From a virus: a stretch of 33,145 nt of DNA. This document shows, in pieces, positions 740-14,098 of the stretch; position 1 is the stretch's first letter, and each line of letters starts with the position of its first letter. The notes below the pieces were generated by a model. It saw nothing but the letters and a program-made list of their open reading frames with translations. It ran no database searches and had not been told where the DNA came from. The translations under genes and the position numbers were made by a program. Location of the stretch: IMG/VR virus record IMGVR_UViG_3300030107_005559, positions 1-33,145 of that record; one strand, given 5' to 3'.

Positions 740-1189
740 TCATTCACTCTCCTGTGTGCTTCCTGTTAAATTGTCCTCTACTTCCACGCTTATATATTTT
801 TCGCTGGCGGGTTCGTTAAGTGTCCAATTGTTTGCTTTATTTAGATTCTCGTCAGTCTTATGAGCGAACCAAACAGTGCAACCCCAATCATGAAAACTAA
901 TGTAGCAAACTGTCGATACTCTACAATTACGATAATCTTGTTTTTCGCCTAAGTTTTGAGTCAAGTTTTCTTTGAATGATTTATACGAAGGAAATCTCAA
1001 GTGTAAAGCCGGTATGCTATTAGAACCGTAAATACCAGCAATCGCTCTAAATTGTCTAAAGGTTTTACCCAATAAAAGAGACTTCTTTTTTCTTTTTTCT
1101 ATTAATCGGGTTACAAAAACAGCATCTTCAAAAGGCCCAAGCCAATCTTCACCTAATTCTCCTAGTGAGTAAGTTATTCCATCGCTCAT
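740..1189 (-). CDS. Hypothetical protein (149 aa) carrying one VFVT repeat
   Basis: The start at ATG 1189 is supported by GGAGGTG just upstream and an ATGA overlap with the preceding gene. The protein is mixed alpha/beta with a lysine-rich segment near residues 31-37. Residues 24-27 (VFVT) are encoded by one copy of the genome-wide 12-mer GTTTTTGTAACC, in the sense orientation. The C-terminal region is encoded by a promoter module for the downstream gene. I recognise no known domain. Its place in a dense run of small coupled genes suggests an accessory or early viral role, which is inference only. Confidence 0.7.
   Translation of the reverse strand: MSDGITYSLGELGEDWLGPFEDAVFVTRLIEKRKKKSLLLGKTFRQFRAIAGIYGSNSIPALHLRFPSYKSFKENLTQNLGEKQDYRNCRVSTVCYISFHDWGCTVWFAHKTDENLNKANNWTLNEPASEKYISVEVEDNLTGSTQESE
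790..820 (-). promoter_or_regulatory. Minus-strand promoter module inside the 740-1189 gene
   Basis: The minus strand reads CTTAACGAACCCGCCAGCG followed by a TATA box at 790-797. It sits within the last codons of the preceding gene and encodes part of that protein (EPASEKYIS). The predicted start of transcription is near 768, giving a leader of about 30 bases before ATG 738. It differs from most other modules by one inserted base in the upstream element. Confidence 0.6.
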
Positions 1190-1644
1190 TCTTTCACCTC
1201 CAAGCCGACTATTTCAAATCCACTCCATTTGGTACAGGCCTTTTGAAAATTATCATCAATTGTATCTAAGATATAATAACCATTTTCATCCCTTTCTATA
1301 ACAAGTTCTTTGATTTCATCCCACGATAAATCGCTTCCTTTCTGATGTTCTTCTGCTAATGAAACCCACGGTGGGAATAAACAATTCATGTCGTTATAAT
1401 TTTGAGCGCGTTCATCCCATCTATCGTTTTCATAATCCCATGTCCATTTGTAATTAGGGTCTGATTCTGAATAATGAATGATACCCTTCTTTACTAAAGA
1501 TGTAGTTATTGCTCTCCATTGTTTAGGATTTAGGCTACAATATCCAGCCGATACCCACATGACTATACCTTGTCCGTCAGTCGTATGGTCTGAAAAAACC
1601 ATGTCCTTAATAAATTCAAATTCTAGTTTCGTTATTTTCTTCAT
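1186..1644 (-). CDS. Hypothetical protein (152 aa)
   Basis: The preferred start is ATG 1644 (MKKITKLEFE). It follows the upstream stop as TAAAATG and has a GAGGAGG sequence about ten bases upstream; two closer in-frame ATG codons lie too near that sequence. The N-terminal 50 residues (EFEFIKDMVFSD, then PKQWRAITTSLVKKGII) look like a winged-helix or compact helical domain. This resembles small phage proteins that use a helix-turn-helix-like fold, but it is weak evidence. A tryptophan- and asparagine-rich middle and an acidic C-terminal part follow. The 3' end overlaps the next start by four bases, consistent with translational coupling. Confidence 0.7.
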   Translation of the reverse strand: MKKITKLEFEFIKDMVFSDHTTDGQGIVMWVSAGYCSLNPKQWRAITTSLVKKGIIHYSESDPNYKWTWDYENDRWDERAQNYNDMNCLFPPWVSLAEEHQKGSDLSWDEIKELVIERDENGYYILDTIDDNFQKACTKWSGFEIVGLEVKE

Positions 1645-1645
1645 T

Positions 1646-1846
1646 TTATTCATCCTCCTCAAAATATCTTAATATCTTTTTTATTGTGTGATTTGAAAAC
1701 TCATCTTCCATATGAGCCTTATCAAGAGCGTAAATCAATCTCAATCTTTCACTAGGTTGCTCTAACGCCTTCGTAAAAAGCGATGCTAATTTATTATACC
1801 TGTACGCTTTCATTTTCTTCATTTCTGCATATTCTTCTAAATCCAT
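1646..1846 (-). CDS. Small hypothetical protein (66 aa), helical
   Basis: ATG 1846 is preceded by GGAGGAAG and follows the upstream stop in the arrangement TAATATG. The sequence is nearly all helical (residues 1-50 rich in Leu, Ala, Lys, Glu) and ends in FEEDE, whose codons provide the Shine-Dalgarno sequence of the next gene. I do not recognise a family. The gene sits in a tight run with its neighbours and is likely co-transcribed with them. Confidence 0.65.
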   Translation of the reverse strand: MDLEEYAEMKKMKAYRYNKLASLFTKALEQPSERLRLIYALDKAHMEDEFSNHTIKKILRYFEEDE

Positions 1847-1847
1847 A

Positions 1848-2159
1848 TTATTCTTCCTCCTTGATTATTTTTACTGCATCCATTATGGACATGACGCTCC
1901 ATTCTACTTCGCTTGAACCTTCAATCAAGACGTTACCATCTCCACCGTATTCGCACCATTTCCAATTAGGATAGTGCATTAGCATTTTGTGAAAGCATTC
2001 TTTTATTGAATCATATTTTTTGATAGCCTCTCCTAATGTAGCAATCTCATATGAATCATCAGCAACACCTAAACTATAATCCCCATTATCATCTATATGA
2101 CCATCTTCGGGGCCGTACCAAACAAGCACATTAAATTCTCTCATTACATATTCACTCAT
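1848..2159 (-). CDS. Hypothetical protein (103 aa)
   Basis: The start at ATG 2159 overlaps the stop of the upstream mini-gene (ATGA). The protein has two Trp-rich segments (VLVWYG near residues 11-16 and PNWKWCEYGGDG near 64-75) and looks like a small alpha/beta fold. The ending KIIKEEE is encoded by the AAGGAGG sequence that serves the following gene. No family is recognised. Confidence 0.7.
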   Translation of the reverse strand: MSEYVMREFNVLVWYGPEDGHIDDNGDYSLGVADDSYEIATLGEAIKKYDSIKECFHKMLMHYPNWKWCEYGGDGNVLIEGSSEVEWSVMSIMDAVKIIKEEE

Positions 2160-2320
2160 TCTTGTTCACCTTCTCTTGTTTCCGGCATACATTCGGGATG
2201 ATACCAACGCTTCATTTTATCTCGCTCCGTTGCTCCAACTTTATCAAAACTGAAATCCTCATAATGTGTAATCGGTTCCCCGCATTTCTTACAGGTGAAT
2301 GGTGTCCTTCTTAGTCCCAT
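2156..2320 (-). CDS. Zinc-finger-like mini-protein (54 aa)
   Basis: This frame starts at ATG 2320, exactly 25.5 bp from the centre of a TATA box, so its mRNA is probably leaderless. Cys10, Cys13, His41 and Cys44 form a C-x2-C plus H-x2-C set (FTCKKCGEP and YHPECMPE), a pattern typical of small treble-clef or LIM/PARP-like zinc fingers. The body between the pairs is charged and contains a helix. The stop overlaps the start of the next gene. The likely role is nucleic-acid or protein binding; the specific function is unknown. Confidence 0.7.
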   Translation of the reverse strand: MGLRRTPFTCKKCGEPITHYEDFSFDKVGATERDKMKRWYHPECMPETREGEQE

Positions 2321-2322
2321 AT

Positions 2323-2610
2323 TTACTCCTCTCCTTCTAGGTATTTATAGTTTTCGTTAGCGGGTTCGTAAGTTCGTATAATTTGATTCATTTTTCTTAG
2401 TATATCAAAAGCATGAATCAATCTATCCGTTGCATAATCCATAGCATAATCGTACCCTTCTTCTTCTATCATCCCATCAAGGAAATTATAATGCTCAAGA
2501 ACTGTTTCACAGACTTCCCAATTGTTAAGGAAATTCCATTCACCAATCTCAATAGCCAATTCAATCCATCGTTGGTTTTTAGCCAATTCTTCAAAAATTC
2601 TTGTTACCAT
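2323..2610 (-). CDS. Hypothetical protein (95 aa)
   Basis: ATG 2610 overlaps the upstream stop (TAATG). The protein is predominantly helical (for example RIFEELAKNQRWIELAIEIG) with a central acidic segment (GMIEEEGYDYAMDYATDRL). The last 20 residues, TYEPANENYKYLEGEE, are encoded by the promoter and Shine-Dalgarno signals of the next gene, so this tail is not good evidence for function. A related tail (KPANES, KPAIDS) recurs in unrelated neighbours for the same reason. The family is not recognised. Confidence 0.7.
   Translation of the reverse strand: MVTRIFEELAKNQRWIELAIEIGEWNFLNNWEVCETVLEHYNFLDGMIEEEGYDYAMDYATDRLIHAFDILRKMNQIIRTYEPANENYKYLEGEE
2342..2373 (-). promoter_or_regulatory. Minus-strand leaderless promoter module
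   Basis: The element CTTACGAACCCGCTAACG (2356-2373 on the plus-strand numbering) is followed by TATAAATA at 2342-2349. The TATA centre lies 25.5 bp from ATG 2320. The element lies inside the 3' end of the upstream gene and encodes its residues TYEPANEN. Confidence 0.75.
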
Positions 2611-2990
2611 TAAGCATCATCTCCTAGAACTTCTTCCCTTAGCATAGTGATTACTTCATCAACAACATCGGGATATTTTTCACTATCGGGTTTGTAAGAC
2701 CAATCAACAATCGGTACGACATCACACCACGCATCTCCAGTATAATCAACGGCTACTGTTTGAGAATTCCCTGTTTCTTTGTTGAACAGTCTTACGTTAC
2801 AACCCTCAAAGTTTTGAGATTGATACGTCACTTCATCCAAATCAGAAAAGTCAAGCGGTCTTACTTCTTCATATCCGTAACCCATCCAAGTTACCTCAAA
2901 TCCTCGTTCTCTCATTTCCCAAAAGAAGGCGTATAAATTATCGCCAAACTTAAAGTTACAAATTCTTTCTTTCTTTATTCTTCCTCTCAT
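2610..2990 (-). CDS. Hypothetical protein (126 aa)
   Basis: ATG 2990 overlaps the upstream stop (ATGA). The N-terminus is basic (MRGRIKKERI) and is followed by a beta-rich body with several aromatic residues and a possible two-strand repeat (CNVRLFNKETGNSQTVAVDY). A weak copy of the promoter element is embedded near the 3' end (2681-2698) and encodes SYKPDSEK. No family is recognised. It is coupled to genes on both sides. Confidence 0.7.
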   Translation of the reverse strand: MRGRIKKERICNFKFGDNLYAFFWEMRERGFEVTWMGYGYEEVRPLDFSDLDEVTYQSQNFEGCNVRLFNKETGNSQTVAVDYTGDAWCDVVPIVDWSYKPDSEKYPDVVDEVITMLREEVLGDDA

Positions 2991-3280
2991 TGTTTCACAC
3001 TCCTTTTTTCTGCCCTATCGTAAGCATAATCCCATAAATCCTGTACTGAATCTTCTAAGATGTCTCTAGCATTATCATAATAGTCGGTCCAAACTAATCT
3101 TCCTCGACCCAATGATTTTCTGTATAAATCATCTTCTGAAAATCCTATTACTGGTCTATGTTGTCCGTCTTTGAATTCGATTACACCAATCCAAATAGTA
3201 GTATTACCATTTACCGATTGAGGTAAATCATCATTCGCTTCAAAAATTTCTTCTGCTAATTTGTCTATGTTATTCGTCAT
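2987..3280 (-). CDS. Hypothetical protein (97 aa), first gene of a unit
   Basis: ATG 3280 lies 25.5 bp from the centre of a TATA box, so it is the promoter-proximal gene of its unit. A Shine-Dalgarno-like GGAGAGG also lies just upstream, at or near the predicted start of transcription. The protein (MTNNIDKLAEEIFEANDDLP onward) looks alpha/beta with a central IGVIEF strand and an acidic, helical C-terminal half. No family is recognised. Confidence 0.7.
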   Translation of the reverse strand: MTNNIDKLAEEIFEANDDLPQSVNGNTTIWIGVIEFKDGQHRPVIGFSEDDLYRKSLGRGRLVWTDYYDNARDILEDSVQDLWDYAYDRAEKRSVKQ

Positions 3281-3301
3281 ATTTAGTCCTCTCCTTTCAA
3301 C

Positions 3302-3333
3302 TATTTATACCTTCCGATGGCGGGTTCGTAAGG
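3302..3333 (-). promoter_or_regulatory. Minus-strand leaderless promoter module
   Basis: CTTACGAACCCGCCATCG is followed by TATAAATA (3302-3309) whose centre lies 25.5 bp upstream of ATG 3280. The element starts directly after the stop codon of the upstream gene. It is a clean intergenic example of the module. Confidence 0.78.
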
Positions 3334-3334
3334 T

Positions 3335-3667
3335 TTACCAATCCTCCACGATTATGCCGATTTGAATTTGAATCCAACCGCCGTATTCGCACTTATCATA
3401 ACCCCAAACAGGAATTACATGGGTATAGTCACTGATTTCTTCATCATCATTTAGACCGTAGGCTTCTCGGATTTCATCTTCATCCTCATATTCGGTATAT
3501 CCACAACAAATAGCGATGGGGTCATATTCAAACTCTTCCCCAATATCTTCTTCCAGTTGTTCAAAGTATTCAAACAGGGCTTGCCTCCCTTCGTAAGAGA
3601 AGTTATTCTCTCGGTTATAAATCCTAAATCCATCTATAAAATCGTGTTCACTTACTGTTTGTTTCAT
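3335..3667 (-). CDS. Phage-type conserved hypothetical protein (110 aa)
   Basis: ATG 3667 overlaps the upstream stop (TAATG). The segment FEYDPIAICCGYTEYEDEDE near residues 46-65 resembles a sequence often met in small phage proteins of unknown function (a Y/FD-IAICC-YTEY core followed by an acidic stretch and an LNDDEEI-like loop). I know no biochemical role for that group. The C-terminal part is beta-rich (WIQIQIGIIVEDW). The protein is acidic overall. The resemblance is from memory and should be treated as moderate. Confidence 0.7.
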   Translation of the reverse strand: MKQTVSEHDFIDGFRIYNRENNFSYEGRQALFEYFEQLEEDIGEEFEYDPIAICCGYTEYEDEDEIREAYGLNDDEEISDYTHVIPVWGYDKCEYGGWIQIQIGIIVEDW

Positions 3668-3927
3668 TAATAATCACCCTCTTCATAGTATTTTTCAATA
3701 TGTAATTCTAGTCCGTGAATAGCATCGGGATGTATATTCGCTTCATCCTTAGTATAAAGAACCCCACCAATCATTACTGAATTTTCATGATTCATCGGGT
3801 CTTGAAAAACCTCTTCAACATCGGGAGCATATTCAAGAATCCACTTTTCATATTTTCTTAATCTCCGAACCTGCATCCTAAGATATGCAATATCCTTTAC
3901 TAGCGTTAGAATTTCACTACTACTCAT
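3667..3927 (-). CDS. Small coiled-coil protein (86 aa)
   Basis: ATG 3927 follows a GGAGGAG sequence and a TATA box of the promoter family lies 23.5 bp upstream. Residues 1-30 form a probable amphipathic helix or short coiled coil (LVKDIAYLRMQVRRLRKYEK). A compact domain with a VMIGGVLYTK strand follows. The end EEGDY* matches the DDY and ADY ends of other genes here, because the GGTGATTATTAATG junction carries the next gene's start signals. Function unknown. Confidence 0.68.
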   Translation of the reverse strand: MSSSEILTLVKDIAYLRMQVRRLRKYEKWILEYAPDVEEVFQDPMNHENSVMIGGVLYTKDEANIHPDAIHGLELHIEKYYEEGDY

Positions 3928-3929
3928 AT

Positions 3930-4337
3930 TTACTCCTCCTCTTCTTTATTTATAACACTTTCGTTAGCGGGTTTGTAAGGTTTATTGCTAATATTATCCC
4001 AATCCCATTTATCTTCTACGAGCATAGATTCACCTATCGCAGAAACTTTATCCATTACCTCTTCAATCATGTTGTTATATTCATAAGGAATATTATATCT
4101 ATTGCCCCAAGAATCATATTTTGTGTATAATATATTGAACAATTCTTGACGCACCTCATCTATTTGGATTTTCAAAGATACTATTTCATCTTTGGTTGGA
4201 TTTAGATTTATCATAGTTTTATCATCATCTTCTGAACACCAATTACAAACAGGACAAGAAGAAAGCCAATCGCCTCCCCAAGCATCATCATAAAATGGCC
4301 TTTCGATAATTTCAGTATCACAATGAGAACATTCCAT
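3930..4337 (-). CDS. Zinc-ribbon protein (135 aa)
   Basis: I place the start at ATG 4337 (MECSHCDTE) because GGAGGT lies at good spacing and the upstream mini-gene stops one base before it. A longer in-frame start at 4352 would overlap that gene. Cys3/Cys6 and Cys28/Cys31 form a zinc ribbon in the first 40 residues. A helical region follows (about residues 45-110, with EIVSLKIQIDEVRQELFNIL as a possible coiled coil). The C-terminal tail PANESVINKEEEE overlaps a promoter and a Shine-Dalgarno sequence. A nucleic-acid-binding or adaptor role is plausible but not shown. Confidence 0.72.
   Translation of the reverse strand: MECSHCDTEIIERPFYDDAWGGDWLSSCPVCNWCSEDDDKTMINLNPTKDEIVSLKIQIDEVRQELFNILYTKYDSWGNRYNIPYEYNNMIEEVMDKVSAIGESMLVEDKWDWDNISNKPYKPANESVINKEEEE
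3947..3980 (-). promoter_or_regulatory. Minus-strand promoter module
   Basis: CTTACAAACCCGCTAACG (3962-3979) is followed by TATAAATA at 3947-3954, centred 23.5 bp from ATG 3927. It lies within the 3' end of the upstream gene and encodes the residues KPYKPANES. Confidence 0.72.
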
Positions 4338-4338
4338 T

Positions 4339-4428
4339 TTACTTACCTCCATAAAATACCATTGATGGTGATATGCGTTTAATAAATTCCGTTAGGAATG
4401 TTGGTTGTGTGTTGTCTTCTTTGCTCAT
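4339..4428 (-). CDS. Leaderless mini-gene (29 aa)
   Basis: ATG 4428 lies 25.5 bp from the centre of a strong TATA box that follows a perfect promoter element, and the frame ends one base before the next gene. The peptide starts MSKEDNTQPTFLTEFIKRIS. Its last codons supply the GGAGGT Shine-Dalgarno sequence of the zinc-ribbon gene. It could be a real micro-protein or a leader that couples translation of the next gene. No family is recognised. Confidence 0.55.
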   Translation of the reverse strand: MSKEDNTQPTFLTEFIKRISPSMVFYGGK

Positions 4429-4449
4429 ATATATCCATTATCGCCCTAG

Positions 4450-4481
4450 TATATAAACCTGTCGATGGCGGGTTTGTAAGG
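4450..4481 (-). promoter_or_regulatory. Minus-strand leaderless promoter module
   Basis: CTTACAAACCCGCCATCG is followed by a TATA box (4450-4457) centred 25.5 bp from ATG 4428. A copy of GTTTTTGTAACC pointing away from the gene (4498-4509) lies just upstream, as at two other block-leading promoters (5113 and about 8036). Confidence 0.75.
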
Positions 4482-4514
4482 TTTTTTCGACCACATTGTT
4501 TTTGTAACCGTAAC

Positions 4515-4707
4515 AAAAAATAAAAAAACTTACGACCCCCTTCTCGGTCCTCCACCACTACCGGATGAGGGTGGGCCAAAAAAGGGGCCGTAAAAAATGA
4601 ATATGGTCAACGGGGAGGAATGCGCGTCCTCTTTTCCCCAAAGGGTTTTTAATATCCCAACTATCGGTAGCGAGCCGACTTGATACAGGAATCTCCGCCG
4701 TTGTGTA
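4515..4707 (-). ncRNA. Candidate non-coding transcript
   Basis: A complete promoter module (element plus TATA at 4729-4736) points into this stretch, but no start codon lies at the expected distance. The only nearby ATG (4726) gives a four-codon frame ending in TAG. The predicted transcript would start near 4707, is richer in GC than its surroundings, and reaches a T-rich tract (TTTTTTTATTTTTTG on the minus strand) near 4510-4525. Part of it is open as the tail of a frame that starts inside the neighbouring gene, but that frame is mostly antisense-like in composition. I call it a candidate RNA on promoter position alone. Confidence 0.3.
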
Positions 4708-4728
4708 AAATGAACTAATCTTCCATAG

Positions 4729-4760
4729 TATATAAGGTTTTTTATAGCGGGTTTGTAAGG
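4729..4760 (-). promoter_or_regulatory. Minus-strand promoter module with no ATG at the usual distance
   Basis: CTTACAAACCCGCTAT is followed by CTTATATA (4729-4736 in plus numbering). Transcription is expected near 4707. Unlike the other modules it is not followed by a coding start, which suggests an untranslated product. Confidence 0.6.
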
Positions 4761-4761
4761 A

Positions 4762-5058
4762 TTAGTATATCCCAAATCCAATAAAAGGAGTAATCCTTTC
4801 ATCGGGGAAATTTGTAATATACCAAGCGCGAGTCATCTTGTCGATTCTTTCTAATAAGTTTGCATATCTTGACGGACCCATATCGTATTTTATGCCTCTT
4901 ACATCTACCCAAAACATATGTCTATCATAACAAGCATGGACTATTTCACTAAACTCATCTTTTGTTTTACATTTGGATAATGCTATTCTCACAGTTTTTT
5001 CCCAACCATCAAAAGTTCGGGAGTTGTAAATGTAATCTACGGGTTTCATCTTACTCAT
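4762..5058 (-). CDS. Hypothetical protein (98 aa)
   Basis: I place the start at ATG 5058 (MSKMKPVDYI), 25.5 bp from the TATA centre, instead of an in-frame TTG at 5067. The protein looks like a compact helical domain with a basic first half (TVRIALSKCKTKDEFSEIV) and an aromatic-rich second half. The stop codon is followed after a few bases by the promoter element for the candidate RNA. The phrase PVDYI also occurs in the protein at 7243, but the rest does not match clearly. Family not recognised. Confidence 0.7.
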   Translation of the reverse strand: MSKMKPVDYIYNSRTFDGWEKTVRIALSKCKTKDEFSEIVHACYDRHMFWVDVRGIKYDMGPSRYANLLERIDKMTRAWYITNFPDERITPFIGFGIY

Positions 5059-5079
5059 ATATACCAATTATCGCTATAC

Positions 5080-5111
5080 TATTTATAGTTTGTGTTAGCG
5101 GGTTCGTAAGG
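5080..5111 (-). promoter_or_regulatory. Minus-strand leaderless promoter module
   Basis: CTTACGAACCCGCTAACA is followed by TATAAATA at 5080-5087, centred 25.5 bp from ATG 5058. A copy of the 12-mer repeat (5113-5124) abuts the upstream edge of the element, so the two related TTACRAA cores lie side by side on the minus strand. Confidence 0.78.
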
Positions 5112-5112
5112 T

Positions 5113-5614
5113 GTTTTTGTAACCGTAACTTTTTATTTTACCAACCTAAATGTTTTTGTAACCCTAACTTTTTGTAGCGGATTTTTAGGATTTTGTTTTT
5201 GTAACCTTAAGTTTCGGCTGGAGAAAGCGGGTTACAAAAACTGTTTTTGTAACCGGCGCGAGCGAGCAAAAAAAATAGCGCGAAAAAAACGGGTTACAAA
5301 AACTTATAGAAGTCTGTAACAATGGGTTACAAAAACTCTCTTAGGGTTTTCGCTCGGAGTGAGGGATTTACCGACAAACGAAGCGAGGATAGTTGTTCCC
5401 TCGTTGGGTATGTAAGAATGGGTTACAAAAACTCTCTTATGTTTTTTTGGTTTCTACTTTCTGGCCAACCTCCACAAGGGCGCATTTCCATATAACTTTA
5501 CGGTTTGGCGGGAGTAACTACTCTGCATATTTTACAGGCATAGTAGAGTGACTATGATTAACTTCCAATGCACGCTCTCGGAGCCATTGGAATGTGATAA
5601 TGGGTTACAAAAAC
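5113..5614. repeat. GTTTTTGTAACC repeat region, intergenic
   Basis: This gene-free stretch of about 500 bases holds nine exact copies of the 12-mer: forward at 5113, 5152, 5195 and 5243, and reverse at 5230, 5292, 5325, 5421 and 5603. The last copy abuts the TAA of the 5615 gene with no gap. The copies at 5113 and 5152 are extended by a shared TAACTTTTT. A degenerate promoter-like element (TAGCGGATTTTTAGG) lies near 5175-5190 without a clear gene. Two hairpins lie at 5518-5592. I see no convincing coding frame here. Confidence 0.85.
5518..5592. other. Pair of hairpins, possible structured RNA
   Basis: CTACTCTGC (5518-5526) pairs with GCATAGTAG (5538-5546), eight of nine positions matching. 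TTCCAATG (5563-5570) pairs perfectly with CATTGGAA (5585-5592), and GCTC/GAGC form an inner stem with a three-base loop. Both lie in a segment without repeats between 12-mer copies at 5421 and 5603. No TATA box is clear on either strand, so an RNA, a terminator or a DNA-level structure are all possible. Confidence 0.4.
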
Positions 5615-6058
5615 TTATTGTTTCTTCCTCCTTACATGATATACTGATGTGATTCTATGCCTTCGGCCACTTGTCCAATCATGGATTTGACCTGCTCGGA
5701 CACACAAAACATGTCTTGAAGTGAAAACAATATACACGCCACGTTTCGGGATAATTCCGGCCCGTTGCATGGCTCCAATAGTCATAGACGAACCGAATTT
5801 TTTCCTCCAAAGGGTCGGACTCATTTTGTGATTACCTTCAACCGGCTCGGTTACAAAATCTAAATCGTTGATGGCTTTTAGCATTCTTGATTCAGTAAGA
5901 CCTTTCCGATAACTTCTACCACGAAGGGCGCATTTACCATGAGCAGTTTCATAATTTACGCCGGTAGCAATCGCAACCGCCGTGACCGTACAATCATTCA
6001 TTTCGCCCCATTTATCCGAGGCTTTAGACATCTTCTTAAACAATTTTGATTCGCTCAT
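5615..6058 (-). CDS. Papain-like cysteine peptidase fold protein (147 aa)
   Basis: The sequence matches a type of phage protein with a papain/C39-like fold. It has an NDC motif at residues 21-23 followed by TVTAVAIATGVNYETAH, then VYIVFTSRHVLCV with His116, then GQIHDW with Asp127. Cys23, His116 and Asp127 fit a catalytic triad by order and spacing. Length fits the small phage members. Start ATG 6058 has GGAGAGGAG upstream. Residues 68-70 (FVT) come from a copy of the 12-mer (core TTTTGTAACC), and the stop codon abuts another copy. Substrate unknown; cleavage of a host or viral protein is inference. No signal peptide, so it acts in the cytoplasm. Confidence 0.72.
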   Translation of the reverse strand: MSESKLFKKMSKASDKWGEMNDCTVTAVAIATGVNYETAHGKCALRGRSYRKGLTESRMLKAINDLDFVTEPVEGNHKMSPTLWRKKFGSSMTIGAMQRAGIIPKRGVYIVFTSRHVLCVRAGQIHDWTSGRRHRITSVYHVRRKKQ

Positions 6059-6060
6059 AT

Positions 6061-6497: not shown

Positions 6498-6499
6498 AT

Positions 6500-6858: not shown

Positions 6859-6859
6859 A

Positions 6860-7581: not shown

Positions 7582-7582
7582 T

Positions 7583-7972: not shown

Positions 7973-7993
7973 AATCAACAATTAGCAACCTAG

Positions 7994-8025
7994 TATTTAT
8001 ATGTGTCGGTAGCGGGTTTGTAAGG
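7994..8025 (-). promoter_or_regulatory. Minus-strand leaderless promoter module, right-most
   Basis: CTTACAAACCCGCTACCG is followed by TATAAATA (7994-8001), centred 25.5 bp from ATG 7972. A 12-mer copy pointing away from the gene (starting near 8036) lies just upstream, as at 4498 and 5113. Confidence 0.78.
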
Positions 8026-8500
8026 TCATACTTATGAAGTTTTTGTAACCCGATACTTTGGGGGAGGATTGAATCTTTTCTACTATAAAGTATGACGCGC
8101 TCACGCGAGTATAGCGTTTTTGATTTTGTAACCCATTTTTTGTAACCAGTTTGAGAATGATAATATATTTCAAGTTTTTGTAACCGGATATTTTCTGAAC
8201 TGTTTTTGTAACCCCGAAAACACCTACTGCCTCATTCACACTTGCTTTACTCTTTGCACTCGGTTTACTTTTTACACCAACTTTGTTTTTGTAACCGATG
8301 GTTGGGGGTCGATTTTCCTCTCTCTGTGGGGTTACAAAAACACTTTTTGGGTTACAAAAACACGTTTTGGGTTACAAAGACAGGTTACAAAAACACGCTT
8401 TTGTAACCCGAAAATCGTTAGACTGGTCGGCATTTTTTAATCGTCAAAAAACAACTACGATTTGCCCCTACTTTATCGAGATTTTTGCACTTTTTTGAAT

Positions 8501-8538
8501 TTCACTTTCAGTTTTTTTTGAAAGTGAACCTGAAAGTG
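8501..8538. repeat. Competing inverted repeats
   Basis: TTCACTTTC (8501-8509) pairs perfectly with GAAAGTGAA (8520-8528), leaving a T-rich loop. CACTTTCAG (8503-8511) pairs perfectly with CTGAAAGTG (8530-8538). The two nine-base stems share their left arm, so only one can form at a time. The site contains no 12-mer and may be an operator or an RNA structure. Confidence 0.5.
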
Positions 8539-8635
8539 TTTACGTCTAGCGTTTTTTTAATTTTTGTAACTGTTTTTGTAACCCAAAAAATGTTATTTTT
8601 TGTTTTTGTAACCTGTTTTTGTAACCGAGCCTTAC

Positions 8636-8643
8636 TATATATT
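8636..8643 (+). promoter_or_regulatory. TATA box before a tiny leaderless frame
   Basis: TATATATT is centred 26.5 bp upstream of ATG 8666, the spacing used by real leaderless genes here. A second TATA-like sequence (8741-8747) has an ATG at the same distance (8770), but that frame is only three codons long because the 12-mer supplies the stop. Confidence 0.35.
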
Positions 8644-8665
8644 AATTTAGCAAACATTATATACT

Positions 8666-8722
8666 ATGAATGGTTTTTGTAACCGGACCCAAATCGCCAG
8701 CATATCGGAGCCGTTTTCTTGA
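8666..8722 (+). CDS. Possible leaderless micro-ORF (18 aa)
   Basis: The frame encodes MNGFCNRTQIASISEPFS and is supported only by its TATA spacing. FCN is encoded by a 12-mer copy. It could be a micro-protein, a regulatory upstream frame or chance. Confidence 0.2.
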   Translation: MNGFCNRTQIASISEPFS

Positions 8723-8874
8723 AGCATCCACTTACAAGTATATAAACAATTGTTTTTGTAACCCCCCCAATGTTTTTGTAACCGCACTGGTGTAAAAAAT
8801 GCACTAAATTACTAAAAAAAACCTAAAAGGTTACAAAAACAGAAAAAACCTACAAATGCACAAATCAACGAACA

Positions 8875-8882
8875 TACTATAA
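8875..8882 (+). promoter_or_regulatory. TATA box of the 8904 gene
   Basis: TACTATAA is centred 25.5 bp from ATG 8904, implying a leaderless mRNA. A reverse 12-mer lies upstream at about 8829-8840. Confidence 0.6.
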
Positions 8883-8903
8883 GGGAAGGGGGTATCTCGT
8901 ACC

Positions 8904-9371
8904 ATGAGCAAAACATACCACCGCCACAAAACGTCAAAATACTGTAAGCCATGCAAGAAAACCAAGAGGGGTATCATTATTGATGATGCCTTCATGTGTG
9001 TTGATTGTGCAACCGAGGCAGGTTATACAGTCATCAAGAGAAGCAACGCGAACAGTGCTTCATTCACATCAAAAACAGGACAGAAAGCACGTAAGAAGCA
9101 ATTAAACGACGTTGATGCTATGCACCGAGCAAACCAAGCCCGAAAGGTCAAGGCTACCCAAAGAGCAAAGAAGGCCGCTGAGAGGCGTAAAATCGCACTT
9201 ATGGAGGATATGGTAGGTATTCAAGGCTTAGAAAATCACTTCAAGAAGTCGGGCATTTGCCGAGGTTGTAAGGGTCGCGTTCCTGTTGCTCAAGCAACAT
9301 ATGTTCATCGTGATGATTTCAGAAACCCAAACGATACTCCGACAGTAGTATGTAGGGGGTGTGCTGAATGA
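8904..9371 (+). CDS. Double zinc-ribbon basic protein (155 aa)
   Basis: Two zinc-ribbon modules flank a very basic helical middle. Cys14/Cys17 with Cys32/Cys35 form the first, and Cys119/Cys122 with Cys150/Cys153 the second. The linker (about residues 58-98, KARKKQLNDV to AAERRKIALM) is rich in Lys, Arg and Ala, as in DNA- or RNA-binding proteins. The gene is the first of the plus-strand block, is probably leaderless, and sits beside the densest repeat region. I infer a viral transcription factor or nucleoid-type protein and a possible binder of the 12-mer. No named family is recognised. Confidence 0.75.
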   Translation: MSKTYHRHKTSKYCKPCKKTKRGIIIDDAFMCVDCATEAGYTVIKRSNANSASFTSKTGQKARKKQLNDVDAMHRANQARKVKATQRAKKAAERRKIALMEDMVGIQGLENHFKKSGICRGCKGRVPVAQATYVHRDDFRNPNDTPTVVCRGCAE

Positions 9372-9568
9372 AAGACTACATAGAGGTCATTAATTTTTGT
9401 AACCACGAACTTCAATGTTGGGCTGATGGTTCAATTGATTTATGTTTTTATGAATTTGATGAACCTACTCAAGAGGTTCCTATGTATTACATTTCATTAC
9501 ATCATGATTTTGTAACCAACCATGTTTTACACTTACACGTATTTAGATTAGGACAATGGCTTTTGTAA
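9368..9568 (+). CDS. Small hypothetical protein (66 aa) ended by a repeat copy
   Basis: ATG 9368 overlaps the stop of the preceding gene (ATGA). The protein is rich in His, Tyr and Phe. Three copies of the repeat core act in the gene, each in a different frame: one encodes NFCN near residue 10, one encodes DFVT near residue 47, and the last supplies the stop codon (TTT-TG-TAA read as CTT TTG TAA). This is a compact example of how the repeat is accommodated in coding sequence. Function unknown. Confidence 0.65.
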   Translation: MKDYIEVINFCNHELQCWADGSIDLCFYEFDEPTQEVPMYYISLHHDFVTNHVLHLHVFRLGQWLL

Positions 9569-9773
9569 CCGCTTTTGTAACCTATCTCTGTACGTTTTTG
9601 TAACTCTGTATCTCTGTATCTCTCTGTATCTCTGTACGTTTTTGTAACCGTTTTTGTAACCTGTGCAATTTTGTTTTTGTAACCGGAGGCGCGTAGCGCG
9701 GACCCCGATACCACTTGAGATGCAGGTATATAATCATATGTTTTTGTAACCCATAAGGGTGCTTTTCCGAAAC

Positions 9774-9781
9774 ATATATAT
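9774..9781 (+). promoter_or_regulatory. TATA box without a coding start
   Basis: ATATATAT follows AAAC as in the leaderless promoters downstream and has a 12-mer upstream at 9739. The predicted start of transcription is near 9803, where there is no start codon. Confidence 0.45.
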
Positions 9782-9799
9782 GCTGCGACCTCCTCCCAT

Positions 9800-9905
9800 T
9801 AAATAGAGGAGGAGGAAACGAGAACAGACCACTTGCGGAAGGTCGAAATTGAAAGGAGGATAGCACCGAGTAAAGGAGAGTCGTAAGAAGAACAGTCATA
9901 AGCAG
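9800..9905 (+). ncRNA. Candidate purine-rich non-coding RNA
   Basis: The predicted transcript from the TATA box at 9774 contains no ATG for about 100 bases. It has at least three Shine-Dalgarno-like segments (GAGGAGGAGG at 9806-9815, AAAGGAGGAT and AAAGGAGAG further on) and ends at a 12-mer copy near 9904. CCTCCTC (9789-9795) can pair with GAGGAGG (9806-9812) at the DNA level, and GACC/GGTC flank a short loop inside. Its existence rests on promoter position and composition. Confidence 0.3.
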
Positions 9906-10024
9906 TTTTTGTAACCTAGTCCCACACCCCCCCGTAACCAATAAGACCTAACTACTTGCTTTTGTAACCGGCTGCTATACCAACCACGGCGAAGTCACTG
10001 GGCTACGGGATAAGGGGGGGCGTG

Positions 10025-10219
10025 AAACTTTTTTTGTAACCCAGTTTTTGTAACTGGGTTATTTTTTTTTGTAACCCAATTGTTTTTGTAACCCACACTC
10101 TCTGTGTGTTTTTGTAACCTAATTTCTCTCTGTTTGTTTTTGTAACCCAAGACGCGAAGCGTAAAAAATGTTTTTGTAACCGTACACATAGGGCTACAAA
10201 AACAATTGTTTTTGTAACC
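10025..10219 (+). repeat. 12-mer repeat cluster upstream of the 10267 gene
   Basis: Seven forward copies of the core (about 10030, 10063, 10082, 10108, 10136, 10169 and 10208) plus one variant (10043) and one reverse variant (10192-10203, GGCTACAAAAAC) occupy 190 bases. The last two form a palindrome beside the promoter. Confidence 0.85.
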
Positions 10220-10245
10220 TATAACTACAAACCAAACATATATAA
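10195..10245 (+). promoter_or_regulatory. Palindromic operator plus TATA box
   Basis: A perfect 22-bp palindrome (10195-10216) is formed by a reverse and a forward 12-mer meeting at CAATTG. The TATA box ATATATAA (10238-10245) follows and is centred 25.5 bp from ATG 10267, giving a leaderless mRNA. The same layout recurs at 12220 and 13013. Confidence 0.7.
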
Positions 10246-10266
10246 GCGGAGCCTCCATCTCAGTAC

Positions 10267-10470
10267 ATGGACGGAAAATACCTAACATGGTTTAATGAAC
10301 TAAGCACCGCAGACCAACTTGAGGAATTGGCCGAAATCGTTGGAGACATAACCGACGACGAAGGTGATATGCTTGATATGGTTGCGTGGATAAATGCACG
10401 AACGCTGATTGCTATAATGCAAACCGGAAACGTAAAAATAGATGTTGGTAGGTGCTACTATGGGTACTAG
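10267..10470 (+). CDS. Small acidic protein (67 aa)
   Basis: The start is fixed by the TATA box 25.5 bp upstream. The protein is acidic and helical (ADQLEELAEIVGDITDDEGD), with a hydrophobic second helix (DMVAWINARTLIAIMQTG). No domain is recognised. It is the first gene of a two-gene unit with the zinc-ribbon protein that follows, which has its own Shine-Dalgarno sequence. Confidence 0.68.
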   Translation: MDGKYLTWFNELSTADQLEELAEIVGDITDDEGDMLDMVAWINARTLIAIMQTGNVKIDVGRCYYGY

Positions 10471-10511
10471 ATTTTTGATTTTGTAACCAACGAAAAGGAG
10501 GTTGAAGTTTA

Positions 10512-10709
10512 ATGTGCAAAATATGTAAAAATGATGACGGATTGAAAGACCATTTTAGAATTAAGGATGAGTTAGAAACTACCGGCTTGATATATTGGTT
10601 CTGTCCCGATTGTGGTAGAATAGACCGACCCTATCATGATGAATTCAATAAGTTAGGGTTCGGAGTATGGATATGGGGTTCGCCCGATTGGATGATTCAT
10701 GATGAATGA
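10512..10709 (+). CDS. Zinc-ribbon small protein (65 aa)
   Basis: ATG 10512 has a strong AAGGAGG sequence (10495-10501) at good spacing. Cys2/Cys5 and Cys31/Cys34 (CKIC, CPDC) form a zinc ribbon, followed by a Trp-rich C-terminal region (VWIWGSPDW). The stop codon is followed without a gap by a TTTTGTAACC copy. A role in nucleic-acid or protein binding is plausible. The gene probably shares an mRNA with the preceding one. Confidence 0.7.
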   Translation: MCKICKNDDGLKDHFRIKDELETTGLIYWFCPDCGRIDRPYHDEFNKLGFGVWIWGSPDWMIHDE

Positions 10710-10789
10710 TTTTGTAACCCTCTCTCTTTAGTTTTTGTAACCGTTTTTGTAACCGATGGATTTATGTTTTTCATTTTTGTTTTTGTAAC
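10710..10789 (+). repeat. 12-mer cluster between 10512 and 10839 genes
   Basis: Four copies lie here: a core copy abutting the stop at 10710, a tandem pair at about 10731 and 10742, and one at about 10778. CTCTCTCTTT separates the first from the second. This order (stop, repeat, pyrimidine tract, repeats, TATA) recurs in other gaps. Confidence 0.82.
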
Positions 10790-10810
10790 CGGACTACTCA
10801 TTCCAAACCA

Positions 10811-10818
10811 TTATATAC
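10811..10818 (+). promoter_or_regulatory. TATA box of the 10839 gene
   Basis: TTATATAC is centred 24.5 bp from ATG 10839. A 12-mer copy lies about 22 bases upstream of the TATA box. Confidence 0.6.
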
Positions 10819-10838
10819 CTACACCACTTCGTAGGGGT

Positions 10839-10970
10839 ATGAGCGAACAACACGACGCACACGTTAGAGCATGGAAGCAATATCAAGAAGAAGAAAGGAA
10901 ATTGATGGAAGCAGACCGAGCATTAGACCGCCACCTGCAAAGAATAGAAGATGCTTACGGAGAGTATTGA
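10839..10970 (+). CDS. Short helical protein (43 aa)
   Basis: The ATG at 10839 is fixed by the TATA box; a longer frame would begin inside the repeat cluster. The whole peptide is a charged amphipathic helix (AWKQYQEEERKLMEADRALD), possibly a coiled coil that dimerises. Such short helical proteins often act as anti-factors or adaptors in viruses, but nothing here shows it. The next gene starts one base after its stop. Confidence 0.58.
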   Translation: MSEQHDAHVRAWKQYQEEERKLMEADRALDRHLQRIEDAYGEY

Positions 10971-10971
10971 T

Positions 10972-11163
10972 ATGAGCAAACCATTGTTTTTTGTAACTCC
11001 CAACGCACCTAAAGGTCGGGCCTGTATTTGGACAGACAAAGCCCAACGCACTAGAAATGCACAAATTAAGGCACTAATCCCATTAGCGCGAAATGGTAAT
11101 GTTGAGGCCATGCAAGCCCTTCGACTTGTTCTTTGGACTAATGTAGTAGCGGGCGCAGTTTAA
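10972..11163 (+). CDS. Small basic protein (63 aa)
   Basis: ATG 10972 follows the preceding stop (TGATATG) with GGAG about ten bases upstream. The N-terminus MSKPLFFVTPNAPKGRACIW contains FFVT from a variant repeat (TTTTTTGTAACT). The rest is a helical, basic segment (AQRTRNAQIKALIPLARNGN). The stop TAA is followed without a gap by a full 12-mer at 11164. No family is recognised. Confidence 0.62.
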   Translation: MSKPLFFVTPNAPKGRACIWTDKAQRTRNAQIKALIPLARNGNVEAMQALRLVLWTNVVAGAV

Positions 11164-11362
11164 GTTTTTGTAACCGTCTTTGTAACCGGAGTTTTTGTAA
11201 CCCGTTTTCTTTTTTTTTGTTTTTGTAACCCATGTTTTGTTAATCCTTGTGGGTACAAAAACATTTTTGTTTTTGTAACCCTAGTTATTTATTTTGCTCG
11301 CGCAACGGTTACAAAATCAGTTACAAAAGCAGTTACAAAAGCGTTGTTGGGTTACAAAAACA
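11164..11362. repeat. 12-mer cluster between 10972 and 11414 genes
   Basis: Forward copies lie at 11164, 11190, 11219 and 11269 and a variant at about 11178. Reverse copies or variants lie at about 11250, 11306, 11320, 11334 and 11350. A head-to-head pair at about 11250-11280 (GGGTACAAAAAC facing GTTTTTGTAACC) matches the operator layout of other promoters. Confidence 0.82.
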
Positions 11363-11384
11363 ATATTATTGGGTAATCGTTGGG

Positions 11385-11392
11385 TTTATATG
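11385..11392 (+). promoter_or_regulatory. TATA box of the 11414 gene
   Basis: TTTATATG is centred 25.5 bp from ATG 11414. The stretch between TATA and start (GCGAACACCCTATCC..ACAAACATG) closely matches that of the 12293 gene, which has GCGGACACCCTATCCCATAA. Confidence 0.62.
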
Positions 11393-11413
11393 CGAACACC
11401 CTATCCGACAAAC

Positions 11414-11599
11414 ATGAACGTACGACTATCGAACGACAAAGGAATGACTGTTCATTACATCAAGGCCCGAAGGTTGCTTATCAGAACCAATAACGGCGTA
11501 CGAGATGTAACGACATTAGACGACCAACAAGCCCATGCTTTTGAAACCTTAGTGCTTCAAAACCGCTTCAAGGGTTGCACTATTGAGGTATTAGCATGA
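11414..11599 (+). CDS. Small basic protein (61 aa)
   Basis: I place the start at ATG 11414 by TATA spacing; the longer open frame upstream only translates repeat copies (LQKQLQK). The protein reads as a small beta-rich domain (VRLSNDKGMTVHYIKARRLL) with several basic residues. It overlaps the next gene by four bases (ATGA). Function unknown. Confidence 0.62.
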   Translation: MNVRLSNDKGMTVHYIKARRLLIRTNNGVRDVTTLDDQQAHAFETLVLQNRFKGCTIEVLA

Positions 11600-12084
11600 A
11601 ACCCACACCAATTGAAAAAATATGTAATGTTCCTATGAGCCTTAGATATTCTCATGAGGATAATATAATTGCTTTAGTAGTGAAGCATTTGAATAAAGAG
11701 GCAGATAATCATAGAAATGAATCCCATTGTGATTGTTGTGAAACATTTGAGTTAGTTGATATGTGGACAAACCATTGGTCCGAATATGATTATGATGGAG
11801 GCGAGGATGACTTTTGCTCCCAAACTTGTTTTATGTTTCAGTGTCCTGTATGTAGTATTGAATTTGGTTCTACACCGCATGAAATTGAAGAAATTAAAGA
11901 GAACTATTACCTAAGTAAAATGGCCAATATGTCGAATTATCAGCGTTTAATAACACAAGTAGCAGTATTAGAAAATGAACTAAGAAAACAATTTGGAGAT
12001 AGTTACGTGAGAGATTTTTATGATTTAGGTTATAGAGAACAATCCTTCACTCAATTTGAGTTGATTAGGCGAGGATATAGGTGA
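11596..12084 (+). CDS. Zinc-finger protein (162 aa)
   Basis: ATG 11596 overlaps the preceding stop. The region of residues 44-90 holds clustered cysteines and histidines: HCDCCETFEL, then FCSQTC, then CPVCSIEFG. This suggests a treble-clef or double zinc-binding domain. The C-terminal third is a helix (LITQVAVLENELRKQFG) likely to form a coiled coil. The stop codon is followed directly by a repeat copy. A nucleic-acid-binding role is plausible. The gene itself has no repeat copy, unlike its right-hand neighbour. Confidence 0.68.
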   Translation: MKPTPIEKICNVPMSLRYSHEDNIIALVVKHLNKEADNHRNESHCDCCETFELVDMWTNHWSEYDYDGGEDDFCSQTCFMFQCPVCSIEFGSTPHEIEEIKENYYLSKMANMSNYQRLITQVAVLENELRKQFGDSYVRDFYDLGYREQSFTQFELIRRGYR

Positions 12085-12244
12085 TTTTGTAACCCATTTT
12101 GTAACCCCCTCTCTCTATGCTTTTGTAACCGACCACTCTTTGTTTTTGTAACCTAGTGTTTTTGTAACCTCTACGACGCACAATGTTTTTGTAACCGGAG
12201 GTTTTATTCGCTTGCGGCCACAAAAACAATTTTGTTTTTGTAAC
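12085..12244. repeat. Repeated intergenic cassette, copy 1
   Basis: Copies of the core abut the stop (12085) and recur at about 12096, 12119, 12140, 12158, 12184 and 12233. The order is stop, core, core, CCCTCTCTCTATG, 12-mers, a CTACGACGCACA segment, GCGGCCACAAAAAC and then a forward 12-mer. The gap at 12886-13083 has the same order and related spacer sequences (CTCTCTCTTTG, CCACGACGTACA, GTGGCCACAAAAAC), so the two gaps appear duplicated. Confidence 0.8.
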
Positions 12245-12270
12245 CGAAGTATAAATCGGAACATATATAA
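12220..12270 (+). promoter_or_regulatory. Palindromic operator plus TATA box
   Basis: ACAAAAACAA and TTGTTTTTGT (12220-12241) form a palindrome with a TT centre. ATATATAA (12263-12270) is centred 26.5 bp from ATG 12293. It matches the promoters at 10195 and 13013. Confidence 0.68.
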
Positions 12271-12292
12271 GCGGACACCCTATCCCATAAAC

Positions 12293-12733
12293 ATGAACGA
12301 AAGAGCATACAACACGAATGAAATTCTTGAATTGACCATTGAAAACGGTGGCGGTACTTGGCTAAGATTAGGCAGGGGGGGTTTTTGTAACCCCTTTCAA
12401 TATGACCGTTATGTCCTAGCCGGTTATGAGGGCGACGGCTTAGTTATTCCAAATTTCAAGAGTCAGCCTGTTGATTTTGTAACCCACCTTATTGAGTGGT
12501 TTGCATTACAAATAAACCGAGGCGGTCAAATATTCACAGAAAACGGTTTTTGTAACCCAGTTCATAATGCACACTTTGGAACTTGGGTTCGTGGTGATGA
12601 TTTAGTTCTTGATATTGTAGAACTAGAAGATGATTTTGTAACCGCGATGGAAGAAGCGAGAGAGCGCAATCAAGATGCAATCTTTGACCTAGTAGAGATG
12701 AAAGAGGTTTTTGTAACCGAGGTGATTGAATGA
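12293..12733 (+). CDS. Hypothetical protein (146 aa) with five in-frame repeat copies
   Basis: The start at ATG 12293 is fixed by TATA spacing; the longer frame upstream translates the repeat. Five copies of the core lie in the gene. Two are read in one frame as GFCNP (near residues 30 and 86), and three in another as DFVT or VFVT (near residues 61, 113 and 139). The protein nevertheless looks globular, with LTIENGGGTWLRLGRGG and a second similar GGQIFTENGFCNP segment. These suggest an internal duplication or a fold like the small poly-ADP-ribose or macro-type domains of phages, but that is speculation. The next gene overlaps by four bases. Confidence 0.68.
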   Translation: MNERAYNTNEILELTIENGGGTWLRLGRGGFCNPFQYDRYVLAGYEGDGLVIPNFKSQPVDFVTHLIEWFALQINRGGQIFTENGFCNPVHNAHFGTWVRGDDLVLDIVELEDDFVTAMEEARERNQDAIFDLVEMKEVFVTEVIE

Positions 12734-12885
12734 AACACTCAAGGTTAATGGCTACATTGTTACATGAGTTTTTTGTAACCCTTGAAGATGATAACCCTCT
12801 CAAAGATTATATCAGATTTCATGTTGAAGTATTTGGTATTGAATCGGCGGTTCTATTTTTACGAGAACAAGGATATGATGTTTGA
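12730..12885 (+). CDS. Small protein (51 aa) with an in-frame repeat
   Basis: The frame starts at ATG 12730, overlapping the preceding stop (ATGA), and encodes MKHSRLMATLLHEFFVTLED followed by a helical region. FFVT comes from a repeat copy. The stop TGA is followed with no gap by a full 12-mer at 12886. The overlap and stop-repeat arrangement match the neighbouring genes, which supports it as a real gene. No family is recognised. Confidence 0.62.
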   Translation: MKHSRLMATLLHEFFVTLEDDNPLKDYIRFHVEVFGIESAVLFLREQGYDV

Positions 12886-13036
12886 GTTTTTGTAACCGCT
12901 TTTGTAACCTCTCTCTCTTTGTTTTTGTAACCAAGAGATTTGTGTTTTTGTAACCTACCACGACGTACATGTTTTTGTAACCCATTTGTTTTTGTAACTT
13001 AACGTCGTGGCCACAAAAACAATTGTTTTTGTAACC
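12886..13036. repeat. Repeated intergenic cassette, copy 2
   Basis: Copies lie at 12886, about 12897, 12920, 12942, 12970 and 13025, with a variant at 12987. A perfect nine-base inverted repeat, CCACGACGT (12958-12966) and ACGTCGTGG (13002-13010), encloses two of them. The layout parallels the gap at 12085-12244. Confidence 0.83.
12958..13010. repeat. Inverted repeat around two 12-mers
   Basis: CCACGACGT and ACGTCGTGG are perfect complements 35 bases apart. They could bring the enclosed 12-mer copies into a loop in DNA or in RNA. The equivalent left arm in copy 1 (CTACGACGCACA) has no matching right arm. Confidence 0.6.
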
Positions 13037-13061
13037 TACTTACTAATCAAAACATATATAA
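13013..13061 (+). promoter_or_regulatory. Palindromic operator plus TATA box
   Basis: The 20-bp perfect palindrome ACAAAAACAATTGTTTTTGT (13013-13032) precedes ATATATAA (13054-13061), which is centred 26.5 bp from ATG 13084. Confidence 0.72.
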
Positions 13062-13083
13062 CCCTAGCCACCATCCGATAAAC

Positions 13084-13584
13084 ATGGATGCTATAACACA
13101 CCAAATGAATGACGAACTTGCATGGAGTCAAATTGAGGCCCAAAGGCAAAGAGTGAACGAAAAGAAAGTTTTTGTAACCGAACTTCACTTGAACCCTCCG
13201 GCTAAAGATGCTGGCGAAGAAGTTTTGGATGAATGGATGTTAAGGTGCGAAAGACAGACCTATATCCTTAGAGGTATGGAAAGGTCACTTAACCACGCTA
13301 TTGAAATCCAAAATATGAAAGAGAGTACCATCAACGTCGGTAATGCAATCAACTTCGCTGGATATAACGGACAAGGTATTGTTCAGACTATCCTTGAAAA
13401 TGCCCTTAGAATCGCTGAAAAAGGCCTAGACAGCCTATACAATGAGCATTTCAATAGAGGTGCATGGGTTGGAGAAGTTCGATATAATATTGAGCCTTCT
13501 GATGGTGCTTATGATGCTGAAACTGATTTACTTAATGCAATCAAGGAATTGAAGGAACAATTGCAGAAGATTTCAGAAGAGTGA
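13084..13584 (+). CDS. Hypothetical protein (166 aa)
   Basis: ATG 13084 is fixed by the TATA box. The protein is helical at both ends (residues 1-30 and 140-166, the latter LLNAIKELKEQLQKISEE, a likely coiled coil). The middle (TINVGNAINFAGYNGQGIVQ) is glycine- and asparagine-rich. VFVT at residues 29-32 is encoded by a full 12-mer. The stop codon is followed directly by a repeat copy. I recognise no family. Confidence 0.7.
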   Translation: MDAITHQMNDELAWSQIEAQRQRVNEKKVFVTELHLNPPAKDAGEEVLDEWMLRCERQTYILRGMERSLNHAIEIQNMKESTINVGNAINFAGYNGQGIVQTILENALRIAEKGLDSLYNEHFNRGAWVGEVRYNIEPSDGAYDAETDLLNAIKELKEQLQKISEE

Positions 13585-13852
13585 TTTTGTAACCCAAGGG
13601 GGTTCCCTTGTTTTTGTAACCTCTCTCTTCCCCCTTCTCTTTTTTTTCTCTCTTTGTTTTTGTAACCGAGCGGTCCCTTTGTTTTTGTAACCCTCTCTCT
13701 TTATCTCTCTCTCTTAATGTGTATGTGTTTTTGTAACCCATGTTTTTGTAACCCAAGTTACAAAAACAAAATTAATAACTCAACCTTGAAAAATTAATAA
13801 TGTGTTTTTGTAACCCAATTTCAAAAAATCAAAATTATTGTTTTTGTAACCC
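13585..13852. repeat. 12-mer cluster after the 13084 gene
   Basis: Core copies lie at 13585 and about 13609, 13655, 13680, 13726, 13741, 13803 and 13839, with a reverse variant at about 13757. Long pyrimidine tracts (CTCTCTCTTCCCCC-like, 13621-13655 and 13692-13713) lie between them. No gene is seen. This is the last dense cluster; to the right the repeat almost vanishes. Confidence 0.83.
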
Positions 13853-13903
13853 GTCAAAATCGATATACTCGCGTGTTACTTAGAGGGGAGAAAAATCAAG
13901 GGG

Positions 13904-14098
13904 TTGAATAATTGGGTTCGATGGGTCCGAGAAATGACCCCGAAACGTGAAAAAATGGCCGTTTTTGTAACCAAGTTGATATACCGGCATCCTTCCAGTG
14001 GGGGGCATGGCTACGCCATTGAACACACAGAAGAACGGGGCACAGGGGACCAGTGTATTGATTACGCTGCTCGCTTGGTTTATCGGAACTTTACCTAA
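13904..14098 (+). CDS. Small protein overlapping the next gene (up to 64 aa)
   Basis: The frame can start at TTG 13904, after a GAGGGGAG sequence, or at ATG 13934 (MTPKREKMAVFVT). A 12-mer encodes VFVT, as in other genes here. It overlaps the first 92 bases of the 14007 gene in another frame. The peptide has normal codons and a plausible globular end (GTGDQCIDYAARLVYRN). It may be an independent gene, or the two frames may be one protein joined by a frameshift near 14007-14098. Confidence 0.45.
   Translation: MNNWVRWVREMTPKREKMAVFVTKLIYRHPSSGGHGYAIEHTEERGTGDQCIDYAARLVYRNFT

Follow-up and report, generated by a model that had tools for sequence, protein, structure and literature searches.

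The window analysed here is the whole 33,145-bp stretch of the IMG/VR virus record IMGVR_UViG_3300030107_005559, and its left part is densely populated by copies of a 12-mer, GTTTTTGTAACC. Counting on both strands gave 65 exact copies (53 plus, 12 minus; range 1109-13972) and, over the whole window, 89 copies of the core TTTTGTAACC (74 plus, 15 minus). A first-pass annotation of the sequence had estimated 85-90 copies by eye, with about 74 in 8-14 kb, about 14 in 1-7 kb and one core in 14-33 kb. The two regional numbers were exact and the last copy was located at 31936, so 88 of the 89 cores fall within 1.1-14.0 kb. Markov models of order 1-3 for 1-14 kb predict 0.006-0.074 copies of the 12-mer and 0.09-0.90 copies of the core, i.e. 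less than 0.1 and less than one; this rules out chance or composition bias as the source of the word, which the annotation had likewise judged far beyond chance. It had also noted that the array is neither a CRISPR nor a simple iteron origin. Indeed, the unit is only 12 bp long and there are no regular spacers; the copies are irregularly spaced over ~9 kb, with only short tandem runs, and they occur on both strands and inside genes, not as regular direct repeats in a single origin.

The sites mostly follow the direction of the genes, as had been claimed. In 8-14 kb the genes are on the plus strand, as are 68 of the 74 sites; in 1-8 kb, where the genes are on the minus strand, nine sites are minus and five plus. 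With our own gene calls, in which reverse-strand open reading frames (ORFs) that were merely strings of sites (GYKN...) were not counted as genes, 76 of the 89 cores lie outside genes. The other 13 are all co-directional with the gene that contains them, and they lie in the two frames in which the word's TAA is not read as a codon, encoding VFVT/DFVT or FCN.

Two kinds of position stand out. Among the eight stop codons of the window that open on noncoding DNA, five have a site at an offset of 0-4 (expected 0.8, p=0.0003). In addition, three plus-strand promoters carry an inverted pair, GGNYACAAAAACAATT(TT)GTTTTTGTAACC, 17-18 bp ahead of ATATATAA, and the ATG follows 21-22 bp downstream of this TATA element. 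Similar site-to-TATA spacings were found in the related contigs L016, G001 and L052. Comparison of the window with its relatives L016 and L012 gave 93-100% identity for noncoding columns within sites and 76-85% for noncoding columns elsewhere. Towards the C-terminus of the protein encoded at 8904-9371, the window has FRN and no site, whereas both relatives have FVT and a site at the same place. The five sites within the gene at 12293-12733 coincide with other residues or a gap in homologs from viruses that use other words; since they fall at non-conserved positions, the encoded tripeptide is not needed by the protein. These alignments show that selection acts on the sites at the DNA level.

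A terminase search identified 128 relatives in IMG/VR. Those of large size (up to 72 kb) carry genes for PolB, a clamp-loader AAA ATPase, an ERCC4/HHH nuclease and a PD-(D/E)XK nuclease, and the best E-values of PolB were to haloarchaeal tailed viruses. The window is placed, by inference, in a group of marine archaeal tailed viruses. An archaeal host is very likely because of this replication gene set, the PolB matches and the TATA-type promoters, and a host among the Poseidoniales is plausible. Of the archaeal replication genes and tailed-virus head genes by which the magroviruses of Poseidoniales would be recognised, gene types are present in the relatives of the window; no named magrovirus record matched, so both taxon and host are putative. 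One magrovirus paper, searched in full, does not mention repeats or motifs. The terminase detected no provirus in sequenced genomes, and INPHARED phage records contain no named relative of the protein encoded at 8904-9371 or of that at 23356-24735. When mapped gene by gene, G001, G003 and G005 had their repeat zone as a single 6-10 kb stretch between the terminase and the replication module, with nearly all zone genes being singletons. Gene order in the zone is shuffled among the window, L016 and G015, and identical intergenic blocks recur beside different genes.

Counting in these relatives revealed dense arrays in the same zone, but of different words, even where the terminases are up to 98% identical. 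The dense word (hereafter dialect) differs from lineage to lineage, and most words contain the kernel T(T)TGTA. The dialects are TTTTGTAACCA in G001 and L010, GTTTTGTAACGG in G005, GTTTTGTAACA in L052, TATTTTGTAGGGTT in L032-L036, TGTTTTGTAGGCA in L044 and L046, TGTTTTGTAGTT in L093 and L158, GTTATGTAGTT in L155, AATTTGTAGTA in L163 and L166, CTACAAATTTGTAGC in G003, AAATTTGTAGCAT in G012 and L172, ACTTCGTAGG in L062, L070 and L167, AAATTGTAACC in G008 and TTTTTGTCC in G009; GTTTTGTAACG is also a word of that zone among the relatives, and TTTGGATTT is a possible dialect of L145-L148. Some words form everted pairs with a fixed spacing of 8 bp (11 in G003, 7 in G012) or 12 bp (five in L052, four each in L093 and L163, two in L143), suggesting that a protein with two-fold symmetry recognises the DNA duplex. 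For asymmetric dialects, ~263 sites (summed over viruses) have the direction of the nearest gene with homologs and 69 the opposite one. The test was limited to such genes because spurious ORFs that run backwards across the arrays had made a general ORF version unusable; for the window and L016 it still includes some of these.

Among the zone proteins tested, the product of 8904-9371 is the one with homologs across dialects, and we refer to it as the candidate reader. Homologs are present in the window, L012, L016, G001, G002, G003, G005, G006/G007, G009, G011, G012, L032-L035, L044, L046 and L093, dedicated scans added further ones, and a distant homolog with an AT-hook-like RGRP stretch was found in G008. 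Every motif-bearing contig checked that spans the zone has a member of this family in the zone or at its edge; the motif-bearing contigs without a detected homolog (e.g. L057, L089, L062, L040, L086, G015, G016) are partial, although a position of the gene beyond the contig end is not proven for each. In the type A lineage (window, L012, L016, G001) the gene lies inside the zone; elsewhere the arrays are chiefly upstream of its start, with a few sites also downstream in L032, L046, G003 and G012. The C-terminal zinc domain is conserved, and the N-terminal part occurs in at least four types. An AlphaFold (AF2) model (mean pLDDT 82, pTM 0.41) predicts a zinc-ribbon-like N-terminus, a long helix and the C-terminal zinc domain. 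The protein had no Pfam match above cutoff and no PDB sequence match.

Word and candidate reader vary together. In exploratory tests, uncorrected for multiple comparisons, word distance correlated across 20 viruses with the distance of the reader N-terminal region after removal of the terminase (partial Mantel r 0.38, p 0.001), and more weakly with the terminase after removal of the reader (0.24, p 0.011). For the 11 viruses that share the adjacent gene DUF932, the correlation with the N-terminal region was 0.49 (p 0.002), compared to 0.20 (p 0.14) for the C-terminal domain and 0.21 (p 0.15) for DUF932. Here, the N-terminal correlation persisted when DUF932 (0.46, p 0.003; converse -0.06) or the terminase (0.44, p 0.006) was partialled out. 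Single pairs showed the same: the window and G009 have terminases with 94% identity, unrelated reader N-termini and different words, and L032 and L046 differ in their words with 98% identity in the terminase, 86% in a neighbouring gene and 59% in the reader. In these comparisons the dialect follows the N-terminal region rather than the C-terminus, the adjacent gene or, once corrected for, the terminase. The features of the window are listed in Table 1.

Table 1 Repeat sites, promoters and candidate partner genes in the window
Feature	Position	Strand	Basis
Candidate reader, 155-aa basic protein: N-terminal CxxC/CxxC zinc part, long helix, C-terminal CxxC/CxxC zinc domain	8904-9371	+	Homologs, AF2 model
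Noncoding, putative control region upstream of candidate reader, 17 sites (13 plus, 4 minus)	8039-8840	+	Site count; 3 sites nearest the gene conserved in L016 and L012
Noncoding site cluster, 9 sites, both orientations	5113-5614		Site count
Plus-strand site cluster, mostly noncoding	9561-10219	+	Site count, comparison
Promoter: inverted site pair (10192-10219), 18 bp, ATATATAA; ATG 10267	10192-10245	+	
Promoter of same design: inverted site pair and ATATATAA; ATG 12293	12218-12270	+	
Promoter of same design: inverted site pair (13009-13036) and ATATATAA; ATG 13084	13009-13061	+	
Stop codon TGA followed immediately by TTTTGTAACC	10707-10719; 12082-12094; 13582-13594	+	
Site immediately after stop codon	11164-11175 (+); 12886-12897 (+); 5603-5614 (-)		
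Zone gene with five in-frame sites	12293-12733	+	Homolog comparison
Remainder of repeat zone, last site 13961-13972	10721-13972	+	
Outlying in-gene site (VFVT) in gene 740-1189	1109-1120	-	
Second, weaker candidate partner: rapidly evolving protein with CxxC pairs, encoded between repeat zone and terminase	14008-15107	+	

Several further elements were observed. A second repeat family, CTTACRAACCCGC, occurs on the minus strand of the window at 2360, 3320, 3967, 4468, 4747, 5098, 6537 and 8012, usually ~10 bp ahead of a TATAAA-type element at leftward gene starts, as a putative promoter upstream element. It has CTTRCGAAC in common with GACGCTTGCGA, which is present in ~6-10 copies in viruses that have a reader homolog and no T-GTA array (G004, G006/G007, L150, L152, L160, L165) and stands in G006 upstream of AT-rich promoter-like sequence. 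Besides its dialect, G005 (L133-L134) has another dense word, TAAAAGTAAC (24 copies when counted as TTACTTTTA), at ~5-25 kb in the replication module, mostly co-directional with the genes and at times immediately ahead of start codons. In several viruses that lack a T-GTA word (G004, L060, L066, L071, L077, L088, L091), runs of TCTCTC/AGAGAG show the strongest enrichment of all words; such runs are also present among the sites of the window. The noncoding segment 9780-10060 is conserved in L016 and L012 and is possibly a small RNA; Rfam gave sub-threshold matches only, and 9790-10060 folded no better than shuffles (z -0.6). The protein encoded at 14008-15107 is 34% identical to its L016 version, compared to 92% for the terminases, indicating unusually fast evolution.

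The first-pass annotation had proposed a binding site for a viral or host regulator of the accessory genes and not the virion genes. This is supported in part. The dialects, the covariation and the lack of cellular arrays favour a site for a virus-encoded factor, confined to the accessory zone and absent from the virion genes: a scan of ~85,000 prokaryote species for a host-derived repeat returned eight scattered stretches, with no comparable array and not one from a marine archaeon. Since the words differ even between close relatives, a host regulator is unlikely; control of the accessory genes is suggested by the position and orientation of the sites. Selection, palindromes, dialects and covariation are most economically accounted for by a viral protein that reads its own word. 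That the word is read by a virus-encoded factor is, in our view, quite probable. The product of 8904-9371, a putative DNA-binding protein, is a strong candidate for this factor, and we lean slightly towards this identification. Its N-terminal region would set the word, and the protein would probably silence or gate initiation and elongation across the accessory zone through the sites that precede several TATA boxes or immediately follow stop codons; alternatively, it may activate at promoters with pairs upstream of the TATA element and block at gene ends. Word and reader would change jointly between viruses, giving each virus a private specificity of control or superinfection immunity. The stoperator-like role in transcription, suggested by position and orientation, is tentative, and on the account as a whole, in which the 12-mer is the operator- or stoperator-like site of a co-evolving viral protein, our judgement is evenly balanced.

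Several observations weigh against this account. No universal site-to-TATA spacing was found, most dialects compared lacking the spacings seen in the window, and the orientation bias is absent in G003, L172, L140 and L143. Neither a helix-turn-helix (HTH) fold nor a significant fold match was found for the reader, and a type C member likewise had no fold match. Reader homologs also occur in viruses without a T-GTA array (G004, G006/G007, L149-L152, L159/L160, L164/L165). The Mantel samples are small, and the reader/dialect pairs are not independent of ancestry. The proteins scanned included no integrase or lysogeny gene, and immunity is therefore speculative. Finally, cassette shuffling in the zone is real, and a role of the repeats in recombination may coexist with regulation.

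Taken alone, such a role would make the repeats a signal for cassette exchange that brackets small gene cassettes and provides homology for shuffling, with regulation being secondary. The singleton genes, the shuffled gene order and the recurrent intergenic blocks fit it, but it fails to predict the orientation with transcription, the fixed-spacing palindromes, the in-frame sites, the stop adjacency and the covariation with the protein N-terminus, and we consider it unlikely. Somewhat less likely still is an element acting in RNA, as a 3'-end, processing, antitermination or translation signal for a viral RNA-binding protein. Strong co-direction with genes and stop-codon adjacency agree with it, and zinc modules are able to bind RNA; however, duplex DNA accords with the perfect, exactly spaced palindromes and with the missing strand bias of the dialects that carry them, and the site pairs upstream of TATA boxes lie outside the transcript of that promoter. 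Iterons for replication origin, partition or packaging would explain one dense zone per genome adjoining the terminase, but hardly 60-90 irregular copies across 6-9 kb, also within genes, whose strand follows the genes, and are improbable. Ordinary archaeal oligo-T terminators, suggested by the T4-T5 run after stop codons, are very improbable and not general across dialects, as words without a long T run (GTTATGTAGTT, ACTTCGTAGG) are equally array-like and neither the conserved GTAACC part nor dialect switching is explained.

The closest known parallel to a viral protein reading its own dispersed word is the system of operators, stoperators and immunity repressor in cluster A (L5) mycobacteriophages. 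Stoperators are short and asymmetric, run with transcription and have motifs whose distance correlates with that of the repressors (PMC9283540, PMC6550527). The likeness covers many copies of a short word dispersed over promoters and intergenic spaces, a single dominant orientation relative to transcription in the window and most asymmetric dialects, and a motif that varies together with a phage-encoded DNA-binding protein, here a correlation in a small sample with a protein predicted to bind DNA. In contrast, 60-90 copies occupy one 6-9 kb zone instead of ~20-30 genome-wide, promoters are of the archaeal type, some dialects are palindromic, and any immunity is hypothetical. L5-type repressors have an HTH and a stoperator domain; for the two-zinc-module protein neither an HTH nor homology to the L5 repressor was detected, and we therefore do not assign the sites to the cluster A system. 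The class I and II intergenic repeats of halovirus HF2, also an archaeal tailed virus, are confined to one genome module and linked to promoters (PMC8707807). However, these are 58 or 29 bp long, few, conserved among relatives and promoters themselves, whereas the words described here are of 10-13 bp, virus-specific and mostly off promoters, with only a minority of sites near TATA-like sequence. The closer analogue of the HF2 repeats is the second family CTTACRAACCCGC beside TATA boxes.

No comparable system in uncultured marine archaea was found in the literature searched. We give slightly less than even weight to the proposal that these archaeal tailed viruses possess an undescribed regulatory or immunity system, in which a two-zinc-module family with an exchangeable N-terminal region rewrites a 10-13 bp word (20-90 copies in the hypervariable zone) genome-wide, with codes mutually unreadable even between close relatives. 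If so, dispersed-operator control, known in detail from one actinobacteriophage group, would have arisen with an unrelated protein in archaeal viruses. The dialects would then offer many natural reader/word pairs for the study of a recognition code, as well as a way into studying how viruses exclude one another, and how genes are controlled, in uncultured marine archaea.

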